From: Pseudomonadota bacterium
GTDB lineage: Bacteria; Pseudomonadota; Gammaproteobacteria; Acidiferrobacterales; Acidiferrobacteraceae
Assembly (NCBI GenBank): GCA_021795255.1
Contig: JAJYPQ010000186.1
Location: 1-7,249, forward strand
Reading direction: 5' to 3'
DNA: 7,249 nt
Of the stretch, positions 1 to 7,249 are shown piece by piece. Position numbers and translations under genes: made by a program. Under the pieces are notes generated by a model that was given only the letters and a program-made list of their open reading frames with translations, was not told the origin of the DNA and did no database searches. The stretch's first letter is position 1. Each line of letters opens with the position of its first letter.

Positions 1-26
1 CGCTAATTCCGCCGGCGGAATTAGCG
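1..26. repeat. 26-bp perfect palindrome interrupting the integrase frame
   Basis: The left arm CGCTAATTCCGCC is followed without a spacer by its exact reverse complement GGCGGAATTAGCG. Read in the integrase frame it contributes TAA at 4-6 and TAG at 22-24, so the recombinase cannot be read through it. No T-run follows, so it does not look like an intrinsic terminator. It may be a real inserted palindrome or an inverted-repeat artefact at a contig end; the window alone does not decide. Confidence 0.85.
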
Positions 27-255
27 CCGCACCTTTGCCACCGTCGCGGAATCCTTGGACATACCGGCCTATGCCTTGAAGGCCCTACTGAATCACAAGG
101 GCGGCTCAGACGTAACGGGCGGCTATCTCATCATCAACACGGAACGCCTACGGGCACCCATGGAGAAGATCGAGGACTTCGTATTGAAGGCGGCGGGGGT
201 ACGAGAGAGTGCCGAGGTCGTGGCCCTTCCCAGGGAGTACGGCAGTGCCGTATAA
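25..255 (+). pseudogene. Tyrosine recombinase (integrase), C-terminal fragment
   Basis: Translation from base 25 gives RRTFATVAESLDIPAYALKA and continues through LLNHKGG, DVTGGYL and ERLRAPMEKIEDFVL, ending at TAA 253-255. This matches, from knowledge of the family, the end of the catalytic domain of P4/phage-type integrases: the RRTF after the usual HDL (the Arg of the HxxR box), the LLNHK segment carrying the last His/Trp-type position, and the GYL(I) segment carrying the Tyr nucleophile (Y42-equivalent, in GGYLIIN). Only about 76 residues of a usual 380-420 remain. Upstream, the frame is closed by TAG at 22-24 inside the palindrome. A TTG at 55 could start a short product, but without the catalytic Arg it would be inactive. 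The fragment may be a true relic or the tail of a gene cut by the sequence end. Confidence 0.85.
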
Positions 256-256
256 T
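251..256 (+). promoter_or_regulatory. TATAAT -10-like box ahead of the higB remnant
   Basis: A perfect TATAAT sits at the integrase stop codon, just before the toxin frame. No convincing -35 hexamer lies 16-18 bases upstream, and a transcript would begin around 263, at or after the likely start of the toxin frame. It could be the old higBA promoter or a chance match. Confidence 0.3.
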
Positions 257-259
257 GCG

Positions 260-439
260 TTGACCCTGATCGAGACGCCGCTGTTTTCCTGGCAGTGGTC
301 CGACCACTGGGACGAGGACGAGCGGGGCGCCTTCTGCGCATGCATCGCGATCTATCCAGATGCGGGGGACGTGATTCCGGGAAGCGGCAAATGTCGCAAG
401 GTGCGGTGGTCATGCCGAGGCGTGGCCAAGTGGGGGTGA
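260..439 (+). pseudogene. higB: HigB/RelE-family toxin, N-terminal fragment
   Basis: The frame reads LTLIETPLFSWQW, then DEDERGAFCACIA, then PDAGDVIPGSGKCRKVRW and GVAKWG before TGA at 437-439. This is the signature of the RelE/HigB mRNA-interferase-like toxins found as toxin-first pairs with HigA (family pattern: IETPxF, DEREAF, NPEAGDVIPGSGGCRKVRW). About 59 of the usual roughly 105-110 residues are present. The family's next block, GVRVIYF, is lost; after the TGA the same frame gives HVIH, a possible decayed trace. The start is also doubtful: the only nearby ATG, at 255, is out of frame and stops after two codons, and the first in-frame candidate is TTG 260. The missing C-terminus is found 660 bases downstream at 1097-1147, just before higA. 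A functional toxin is unlikely. Confidence 0.8.
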
Positions 440-463
440 CACGTGATCCATGACTCGGCCACG

Positions 464-520
464 GCCAGCGGGCAGACGCCTGGCAGACGAGACACCGATA
501 GCATACTGATGGCCGCTGGC
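464..520. repeat. Inverted and direct repeats in the DUF4160 leader
   Basis: GCCAGCGG at 464-471 is repeated inverted as CCGCTGGC at 513-520. Inside, GGCAGACG occurs twice (471-478 and 482-489), 11 bases apart, about one helical turn. This 125-base stretch between the broken toxin and the DUF4160 gene has no recognisable gene. The repeats could be an operator for an autoregulated toxin-antitoxin pair or part of the inserted cassette's edge; both are inference. Confidence 0.4.
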
Positions 521-563
521 GTTAAGAGTACCGCGGGGACAGTGCCTTGGAAGAAGGAGGCCC

Positions 564-821
564 ATGCCTGAGATCAGCCGCTTTTACGGTATTGTCCTGG
601 CGATGTTCTGGCGTGACCACCTACCACCCCACTTCCATGCTTACTATGCAGAGCAGGAAGCGGAGATCGGGTTGGATGGCACCTTATTGGCCGGGAACCT
701 GCCGCGCCGCGCCCTGCAACTGGTGGAGGACTGGCGTACAAAGCATCTAGACGAACTAGCCGCCAATTGGGAACACGCAATCCGGAAAGAGCCCATTAAC
801 CCTATCGAGCCATTGGAGTAG
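564..821 (+). CDS. DUF4160 domain protein (putative toxin-antitoxin component)
   Basis: An 85-residue protein with the whole DUF4160 pattern: ISRFYGI at the N-terminus, the diagnostic PPHFHAYYAEQEAEIGLDG around residues 21-39 (two conserved His after PP), then GNLPRRALQLVEDW and HLDELAANWE. Its length is normal for the family. The ATG at 564 follows a strong AAGGAGG (554-560), although only three bases separate them. The DUF2442 gene follows after five bases. DUF4160 and DUF2442 genes are frequent neighbours and are widely predicted to form a toxin-antitoxin module; the biochemical activity is not established as far as I know, and which partner is toxic is uncertain. The pair sits exactly where the middle of higB should be, so it seems to have arrived as a unit. 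Confidence 0.9.
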   Translation: MPEISRFYGIVLAMFWRDHLPPHFHAYYAEQEAEIGLDGTLLAGNLPRRALQLVEDWRTKHLDELAANWEHAIRKEPINPIEPLE

Positions 822-826
822 TTGCC

Positions 827-1093
827 ATGCTGCATATCATTGATGCTCGCGTTGTACCAAGTAATGACGACCGACGCCTCTTAGAGCTGCGCTTCAGTAG
901 TGGGCAGGCGGGAATTGTGGATTTGGCGGATGAATTTCATGGACCCGTATTTGGACCGCTCTACCATCGAGGATCTTTTTCAGAGGTCAGTCTACACCCC
1001 CTGTTCCATACCGTGACATGGCCTAACGGGGCAGACCTTGCGCCGGAATATTTGTTAGACCTGCTACAGCGCCAGCAAGGGCACGCGGCATAA
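827..1093 (+). CDS. DUF2442 domain protein (partner of DUF4160)
   Basis: An 88-residue protein with the DUF2442 layout: an N-terminal strand (IIDARVVP), the RLLELRFSSGQAGIVDLADEF strand-turn-strand, GPVFGPL, FSEVSLHPLFHTVTWPNGADLAPEYL near residues 50-80 and a short tail. The VxWPNGADLxPExL motif is the most recognisable part. The ATG at 827 has GGAG at 814-817, placed inside the end of the DUF4160 gene, so the two are probably co-translated. In other genomes the pair is predicted as a toxin-antitoxin system. Its stop codon (1091-1093) is immediately followed by the surviving 3' end of the broken higB, so the cassette ends within a few bases of this gene. Confidence 0.9.
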   Translation: MLHIIDARVVPSNDDRRLLELRFSSGQAGIVDLADEFHGPVFGPLYHRGSFSEVSLHPLFHTVTWPNGADLAPEYLLDLLQRQQGHAA

Positions 1094-1096
1094 GTT

Positions 1097-1147
1097 TCAC
1101 CGGCTCATGTACTGCGAGAGATTCGCGAGGAGATCGAACATGGCTAA
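1097..1147 (+). pseudogene. higB: HigB/RelE-family toxin, C-terminal fragment
   Basis: In the frame that overlaps the higA start, the DNA reads SPAHVLREIREEIEHG and stops at TAA 1145-1147. From memory of this toxin family, proteins end in a nearly identical segment of the form NIPAHVLKAIKEEIEHG, and the toxin stop overlaps the antitoxin ATG by a few bases, as here (ATG 1140, stop 1145-1147). There is no start codon or ribosome site for this piece; TAA at 1091-1093 (the DUF2442 stop) closes the frame. Together with 260-439 it accounts for both ends of one toxin gene, with about 25-30 internal residues missing. Confidence 0.75.
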
Positions 1148-6789: not shown

Positions 6790-6810
6790 GAAAAGGCCGA
6801 AACCGCCCCA

Positions 6811-6831
6811 AGTGCTTACATAGTGCTTACA
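6811..6831. repeat. Tandem 10-bp repeat near the tRNA, possible integrase site
   Basis: AGTGCTTACA occurs at 6811-6820 and again at 6822-6831, separated by one T. The pair lies about 50 bases inside the element from the tRNA 3' end. Paired short direct repeats near an attachment site are typical of recombinase arm-binding sites; here that role is inferred from position only. An imperfect stem (6841-6847 with 6858-6864) lies between the repeat and the tRNA. Confidence 0.4.
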
Positions 6832-6879
6832 CGCCTTAGGTACGGTATCGGGGGAAGTATCGTAACTCCTTGTTTTATA

Positions 6880-6956
6880 TGGTGGGCCCGGAAGGACTCG
6901 AACCTTCGACCAGAGGATTATGAGTCCCCTGCTCTAACCAACTGAGCTACAGGCCC
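6880..6956 (-). tRNA. tRNA with CAU anticodon (probably Ile2, or elongator Met)
   Basis: The complement folds as a complete 77-base tRNA with encoded CCA (6880-6882). The acceptor arm GGGCCUG pairs with CGGGCCC (one U-G), the D arm is AGCUCAGUUGGUUAGAGC, the anticodon loop is CUCAUAA with CAU at 6920-6922, the variable loop is UGGUC and the T arm contains GGUUCGAGUCC. The UGGUC variable loop and the acceptor are closer to tRNA-Ile(CAU), whose C34 is changed to lysidine, than to elongator tRNA-Met, but sequence by eye does not settle this. It lies 12 bases after rpoD on the same strand and is likely co-transcribed. Its 3' end is the border to the mobile element, so it is the probable attachment site. 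Confidence 0.9.
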
Positions 6957-6968
6957 GCAAAACGTGGT

Positions 6969-7249
6969 CTACATATCGAGAAAGCTGCGCAGATGCTCAG
7001 ATCGGCTCGGATGACGCAACTTGCGCAAGGCCTTCGCCTCAATCTGACGAATACGCTCACGCGTCACGTCGAACTGCTTACCGACCTCTTCCAAGGTGTG
7101 GTCGGTGTTCATACCGATCCCAAAGCGCATACGCAAGACCTTCGCTTCGCGAGGCGTCAGCGTATCCAGGATATCGAGCGTCGCGGCCTTTAAGCCCGCC
7201 ACCGTAGCAGCATCGGTAGGCGCCATGATACTCGTATCTTCCACGAAAT
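6969..7249 (-). CDS. rpoD: RNA polymerase sigma factor RpoD (sigma-70), C-terminal part
   Basis: The frame is open to the right edge of the window and ends at TAG 6969-6971; about 92 residues are visible. They cover the end of region 3 and all of region 4: [15 protein letters not shown] (4.1, the -35-proximal and activator-contact part), then [20 protein letters not shown] (4.2 helix-turn-helix that reads the -35 box) and [20 protein letters not shown], ending LDM. The sequence is nearly identical to housekeeping sigma-70 of gammaproteobacteria. It is core chromosome and marks the outside of the element. Partial only because of the window edge; no damage is seen. Confidence 0.97.

Follow-up and report, generated by a model that had tools for sequence, protein, structure and literature searches.

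A broken higB gene next to an intact higA encloses a DhiTA-type toxin-antitoxin pair and the tail of a foreign integrase gene

DhiTA modules are type II toxin-antitoxin (TA) systems in which a DUF4160 toxin gene precedes a DUF2442 antitoxin gene, both genes being small and overlapping or adjacent; dhiTA of Dickeya dadantii and the Thermus pair called 'PEM' are of this kind. Passages of PMC8198452 report that Dickeya dhiTA is active in vivo, with toxicity and neutralisation in both Dickeya and E. coli, and the heading on plasmid stability in the same paper names only ccdAB2. According to passages of PMC12724237, which give 87 and 92 aa for the Thermus proteins, the DUF4160/DUF2442 pair raised plasmid persistence in that host. 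HigBA is a further type II system. DhiTA, HigBA, orphan antitoxins, and TA modules on integrative elements are already known, as are all of the protein families discussed here. We analyzed a stretch of 7,249 nucleotides from a bacterium of the Acidiferrobacteraceae (the window) in which a DUF4160-DUF2442 pair, similar in size to that of Thermus, stands between the two ends of HigB. This agrees with a sequence-only reading of the window, which had described one TA pair nested in the toxin gene of another.

The window carries, in order, part of a resident tyrosine integrase gene (integrase A), a piece of higB, the DUF4160-DUF2442 pair, the end of higB, higA, cargo that includes a DUF3987 protein, tRNA-Met, and the end of rpoD. 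The C-terminal part of integrase A occupies positions 46–255 (+ strand), and its stop codon overlaps the start of higB. This region is 80% identical to L098 in DNA (window 24–425) and 80% in amino acids, and it is 77% identical in DNA to L002 (window 31–473); the Pfam domain Phage_integrase was matched on the L098 copy. At the other end, tRNA-Met (6880–6956, − strand, found by both ARAGORN and Rfam) adjoins the 3' end of rpoD (6969–7244, − strand, Pfam Sigma70_r4), which is host chromosome. Window 6797–7249 recurs 3' of higA in L001, and 6879–7249 likewise in L005. The host element is mobile and belongs to an Acidiferrobacter-like bacterium, and tRNA-Met is likely to be its attachment site. 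Both an integrase tail and the tRNA gene are present in the window, whose left edge cuts the integrase, and a repeat of the tRNA end was not reported. A palindrome (GCTAATTCCGCCGGCGGAATTAGC) lies at this left edge (1–26), where the integrase homology starts; window 4–35 has a 94% copy in genome G002 and may be a repeat where the contig broke off.

The two parts of higB were delimited by alignment with intact relatives. The 5' piece (245–473, + strand; alignment with P0002, L098, and L002, with the left join set by a shuffle test) encodes HigB residues 1–77; it begins with a GTG at 245, overlapping the integrase A stop, and contains an in-frame TGA at 437–439. The frame had been recognized as HigB in the sequence-only reading, which let it begin at 260 and its homology end at about 437; the identification holds, whereas the limits move to 245 and 473. 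The 3' piece (1100–1147, + strand) comprises the last 15 codons (residues 94–108, at 1100–1144) and the stop, overlaps higA at 1140, and is 100% identical in DNA to L098. Intact HigB relatives (P0002, 108 aa; L098, ORF 1222–1548; L002) resemble the frame 245–436 at their start and end in PAHVLREIREEIEHG, as does the window frame 1100–1147, which bears out the proposal that the segment 1097–1147 is a HigB C terminus. Because homology to higB continues beyond the stop as far as 473 and is found again from about 1100, only about 16 codons (residues 78–93) are absent from the window, and not the 25–30 residues first estimated; since codons were removed, replacement rather than clean insertion remains the correct description. 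What is left is not a complete higB reading frame, as it has the TGA, lacks residues 78–93, and holds an insert of ~630 bases, but HigB homology at both ends and a HigA with a helix-turn-helix (HTH) domain identify the locus as higBA.

An uninterrupted higBA, which the sequence-only reading had proposed to look for in relatives, lies directly behind integrase A in two of them (L098/L143 and L002/L151). In L001, HigA and a full HigB body are present, and tRNA-Met and rpoD follow after ~3.8 kb; the start of its higB is replaced, and a search of this locus for integrase A gave no match. The protein found to end near 437, as a complete protein in the frame 260–439 would, is the truncated HigB P0001 (64 aa; 100% identity at 98% query coverage); its simplest explanation is another copy of the broken higB, and it does not refute the reading of that frame as a HigB fragment. 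P0001 and a DUF2442 protein (P0161, 99%) each come from a single contig with a length of 6063 bases, probably the same one.

The in-frame stop at 437–439 allows another history, in which higB was a dead gene beforehand, like that of many relatives, and the dhiTA DNA arrived there later by chance and without selective meaning. Among the 80 nearest higA loci, higB is full in 45, broken or partial in 22 (including L033, at a contig edge), and absent from 11, the other 2 being at edges; the broken copies mostly have frameshifts, stops, or deletions, and no insert between the pieces. None of the 35 higA loci without full higB had, within 3 kb, an insert flanked on its two sides by higB ends. These counts indicate that loss of higB is common and that a two-sided nest is rare. 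However, dN/dS of the 5' piece relative to L098 is 0.12 (dS 0.81), indicating that higB was under selection until late and died late, and the antitoxin-only pattern recurs behind integrase B, as described below. We consider a chance landing in a dead gene somewhat unlikely.

Three other higA loci have neighbors of related kinds. In genome G011, a second nest (L166, 8101–8175) consists of a HigB-like/HigA pair with a shortened toxin followed first by HigB residues 92–108 and then by a truncated higA, adjacent to tRNA-Met and rpoD. In L031 (4265–5001), yefM-yoeB, an independent TA pair, directly precedes a C-terminal higB remnant (NNIPGQILRQIREEIEHG) and higA. A DUF4160-DUF2442 pair precedes higA in L027, where no higB end was seen.

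The pair inside higB consists of a dhiT-type toxin gene (564–821, + strand, 85 aa; DUF4160, Pfam PF13711, E 4.9e-19) and a dhiA-type antitoxin gene (827–1093, + strand, 88 aa; DUF2442, Pfam PF10387, E 1.8e-9). Both domains are complete and score above the Pfam cut-offs, and the genes are adjacent with the toxin first, which is the domain arrangement of DhiTA. The NCBIfam models gave 65.4 bits for DhiT (cut-off 100) and 22 bits for DhiA (cut-off 200), below the equivalog cut-offs, and we therefore call the pair DhiTA-type and not by the name of the equivalog. The low dN/dS values of dhiT (0.05) and dhiA (0.16) relative to L109, and of higA (0.14) relative to L098, suggest that these three genes are maintained. 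All 23 invariant columns of a 28-row DUF4160 alignment are present in the toxin, by construction since the window's row is included, as are 6 nearly invariant residues; the motif PPHFHA is invariant in this alignment. The toxin (564–818) has a confident predicted structure (pLDDT 95.2), and comparison of this model with solved structures gave no clear match. By analogy with the Dickeya and Thermus pairs, dhiTA would be active here and would stabilize the element.

The insert, from 472 to ~1102, consists of the last 100 bases of a second integrase gene followed by dhiTA. This tail (472–571, + strand) belongs to a foreign tyrosine integrase gene of Acidithiobacillus type (integrase B), of which it forms the 3' end, as assigned by 76% DNA identity to L109 and by a shuffle test. 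Window 472–1091 is colinear with L109 from Acidithiobacillus ferrianus (76% DNA identity), and 475–1091 with L110 from A. concretivorus (75%). The L109 counterpart of 472–571 is the end of a 403-aa integrase ORF, and the integrase B stop overlaps the DUF4160 start in the Acidithiobacillus loci and in the window (ATGCCTGA, 564–571). The integrases compared match Phage_integrase, and integrase B additionally matches Arm-DNA-bind_3.

Shuffle tests placed the left join at 471–473, where GC (472–473) is common to both parents. For window 437–473, none of 2000 shuffles reached the score of the match to L002 higB, and the comparison with the integrase tail gave no match (1888/2000 and 1531/2000 shuffles reached the score). 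For window 474–571, the reverse was found: no shuffle in 2000 reached the score against the integrase tail, and there was no match to the middle of higB (1451/2000). The match of 437–473 to L098 higB was weak (152/2000), which counts against this placement, as L098 is the nearer relative over the rest of higB. The join is known as DNA from the window only, the other copy being represented by protein records (P0001 and P0161). Beyond its stop, the higB frame continues into the integrase B tail as a 42-codon open frame (443–571), the stop of which overlaps the dhiT start, so that translational coupling to dhiT could be kept.

To characterize the donor type, we surveyed the slot directly behind integrase B, which has a match at E 1e-20 in 23 of the 29 genomes of the Acidithiobacillus family. 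The survey covered 19 close-relative loci (66–100% identity to the query) and left out G066:C43, a close match without a locus, and the fragments L128 and L138, which stop short of the slot. As the 19 loci are related, the counts that follow are not independent. An intact toxin adjoins integrase B in 15 of the 19 (8 Gp49/RelE-like with XRE, 5 DUF4258 with DUF2283, and 2 dhiTA); of the other four, L119, L127, and L140 are broken, and the contig of L114 ends within the toxin. Past the first antitoxin, we found no intact toxin and one toxin fragment; antitoxin matches there numbered 11 intact and 13 fragmentary (each part of a split match being counted separately, and a weak HigA2 match in L119 included). 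Without the weak L119 match, there are 18 antitoxin-antitoxin joins of 8 kinds, and the matches lie 5 bases or fewer apart in 14 of them. A newly arriving pair thus seems to replace the toxin already present and to spare its antitoxin, and the outcome in the window, behind a second integrase, is the same. The DUF4258-DUF2283 genes directly behind the integrase in L116, L117, L121, L126, and L139 look like a toxin-first TA pair, with DUF2283 the putative antitoxin by its position behind DUF4258; our search of the open-licence literature found no paper naming both domains.

Alternatively, the antitoxin rows could be immunity genes against the toxins of other elements, recruited singly for anti-addiction and not left over from former pairs. 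Passages of PMC7192599 and PMC12548467 discuss such a role for orphan antitoxins or chromosomal TA genes, and the 11 later antitoxins that are of full length would suit it. Single recruitment does not account as readily for the remains of toxins, namely the C-terminal fragment kept by L122 (DUF4160b, residues 55–79) and the higB ends in the window and in G011, or for the close spacing at 14 of the 18 joins, and we regard it as improbable.

Modules behind integrase B have been swapped repeatedly. In the best tree of 17 integrases, in which L119 was labeled dhi from a remnant and L114 RelE from a part gene, three toxin-first module types require 5 changes, a number that 11 of 200 label shuffles also achieve; 11 of the 16 inner branches are weak, and the well supported ones force at least 2 module changes for each type. 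One supported trio (99/100) carries three different modules: dhiTA in L113, RelE in L114, and DUF4258 in L116. The integrases of L113 and L114 are 95% identical, and their DNA homology ends a few codons before the end of the integrase gene. A search of the 1.5 kb behind nine distant integrases from the same genome family found none of 12 TA representatives (for two of these integrases, fewer than 400 bases were available), and among 11 distant relatives of integrase B outside the family (42–49%; 369 genomes of the class) a TA-like pair was seen by eye at 2 (L179 and L188). The habit therefore belongs to this group of integrases and not to all.

Relatives of integrase A are followed by varied contents, several of the loci being copies of one place. 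A HigB-like/HigA pair occurs in L144, L146, L153, L154, L155, and L158, with a stop in the HigB-like toxin of L146 and frameshifts in those of L153, L154, L155, and L158; L145, L148, L149, and L150 had none of the TA representatives. Behind more distant relatives (44–46%), L152 has a DUF4258 gene, and a further DUF4160-DUF2442 pair is present in L156 and L157. This slot therefore also holds different modules, or none.

The right join was located from a string shared with the donor-type slots, TAAGTTTCACCG (1091–1102, + strand), which comprises the dhiA stop and the Acidithiobacillus slot border. It stands behind the last antitoxin in 6 of the 19 integrase B loci (L113, L116, L118, L119, L120, and L137), indicating that donor DNA reaches 1102, and also behind dhiA in L012. 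The border position has a variant in L136 and other sequences in L117, L121, L126, and L139; one further match of the 11-base core lies elsewhere, in L005 and its copies. ACCG (1099–1102) is common to the donor border and to higB of L001/L002. With 2 shared bases at the left and 4 at the right, microhomology joining is suggested as the mechanism. In the donors, a DUF2283 gene lies between dhiA and the border, and since CACGCGGC is contained in the ends of both genes, DUF2283 was likely lost by a small deletion.

These borders bear on the proposal that a discrete mobile TA cassette jumped into higB with its own terminal inverted repeats, remnants of which had been suspected in GGTGACAC (436–443) and GTTTCACC (1094–1101). 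The right border is indeed a repeated sequence (GTTTCACCG), but one of the donor slot: GTTTCACC is donor border DNA and no inverted partner of the left edge, GGTGACAC lies within higB homology and marks no junction, and on the left the donor DNA begins within an integrase gene. Across the window, no inverted repeat of at least 16 bases was reported, the two junctions do not have the inverted ends of a transposon-like cassette, and among the loci compared (searched with the right end only) none had dhiTA bounded by the same two end sequences at an unrelated site. The insert is thus bounded by an integrase 3' end and a slot border with 2 and 4 shared bases, and a cassette remnant is highly unlikely.

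The antitoxin gene higA (1140–1448, + strand, 102 aa; Pfam HTH_3, E 2.8e-11 on the longer ORF 1107–1448) is intact and without a whole higB, an orphan as first described; HigA is 92% identical to that of L001. It may still bind HigB-type toxins and protect against elements that carry the old toxin. The same dhiA-border-higB end-higA join occurs in L012 (genome G003), with 80% identity over 897–1448 and most of dhiT deleted. This copy (L012, 4400–5303) is decayed: a piece of another integrase is joined to the dhiT end, and dhiA is interrupted. Relative to L098, which lacks the insert, dS is 0.14 for higA and 0.78 for the integrase A tail; relative to L012, it is 0.91 for higA and 0.49 for the 3' part of dhiA, and the window higA is thus closer to L098 than to the locus with the same right join. 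Such differences in dS along the window indicate that it is mosaic and that, besides the insertion, recombination took place at least once more near higA. The unequal divergence of the two window halves from L098 (dS 0.8 at the left and 0.14 at the right) might also be produced by assembly of two elements into a chimera, which is scarcely credible given that the right join occurs in L012, ~20% diverged, and that P0001 and P0161 come from other records.

We conclude that the nest probably arose when DNA comprising an integrase B tail, dhiTA, and the border TAAGTTTCACCG was joined into higB, as one case of wider swaps in which toxins are overwritten and antitoxins kept. Of this account, the sequences show the layout of the locus, both junctions, the type of donor, the repeated swaps behind integrase B, and remains that consist of antitoxins only. 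Two kinds of element would have met, each with a toxin-first TA pair behind its integrase: integrase A-higB-higA in an Acidiferrobacter-like bacterium and integrase B-dhiT-dhiA in Acidithiobacillus. Donor DNA from the last 100 bases of integrase B to the border would have joined higB through the 2 and 4 shared bases, removing ~16 higB codons and leaving an intact, toxin-less higA. Toxin-first order directly behind the integrase would put the toxin at the breakpoint, and the resident toxin would be lost and the antitoxin kept because only loss of the toxin, and not the reverse, is survivable. The new pair would then take over addiction, and the old antitoxins would remain in a row behind it. 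More tentatively, the place behind the integrases may be a dedicated exchange slot for addiction modules, in which swaps are enabled by flanks that are conserved (the 3' end of the integrase gene and the border GTTTCACCG) and the antitoxin row both records their history and shields the host against sibling elements; the swap in the window may then have crossed between two integrase families as well as between two bacterial lineages. The rule would be that toxin-first order beside an integrase lets elements change addiction modules safely. Toxin-less antitoxins would mark past modules, a testable origin for some orphan antitoxins, and the process would bear on how the integrative elements of acidophiles compete for the same hosts.

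We found no description in the open-licence literature of one TA pair spliced into the toxin of another with a foreign integrase tail, or of toxin-less antitoxins standing in an ordered row after an integrase. In comparison with described DhiTA systems, the window pair falls below the NCBIfam equivalog cut-offs and lies, preceded by an integrase tail, within the locus of another TA system. As in higBA modules, some relatives of whose HigB carry PF06296, both higB ends and a whole higA are present, but higB here lacks residues 78–93, has an in-frame stop, and holds foreign DNA. The orphan antitoxins of a K. pneumoniae survey (passages of PMC7192599) are likewise antitoxins without their toxins; the antitoxins studied here, unlike those, are ordered behind one integrase next to an intact pair, and a history of replacement can therefore be proposed. 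In the mobile genome of Acidithiobacillus ferrooxidans, TA modules also lie near integrases and include a Gp49-type toxin-first pair (PMC4226512), and passages of that account describe these without a serial swap behind one integrase gene. What the present locus and its relatives add to these systems is the nesting and the antitoxin row, both of which are new.
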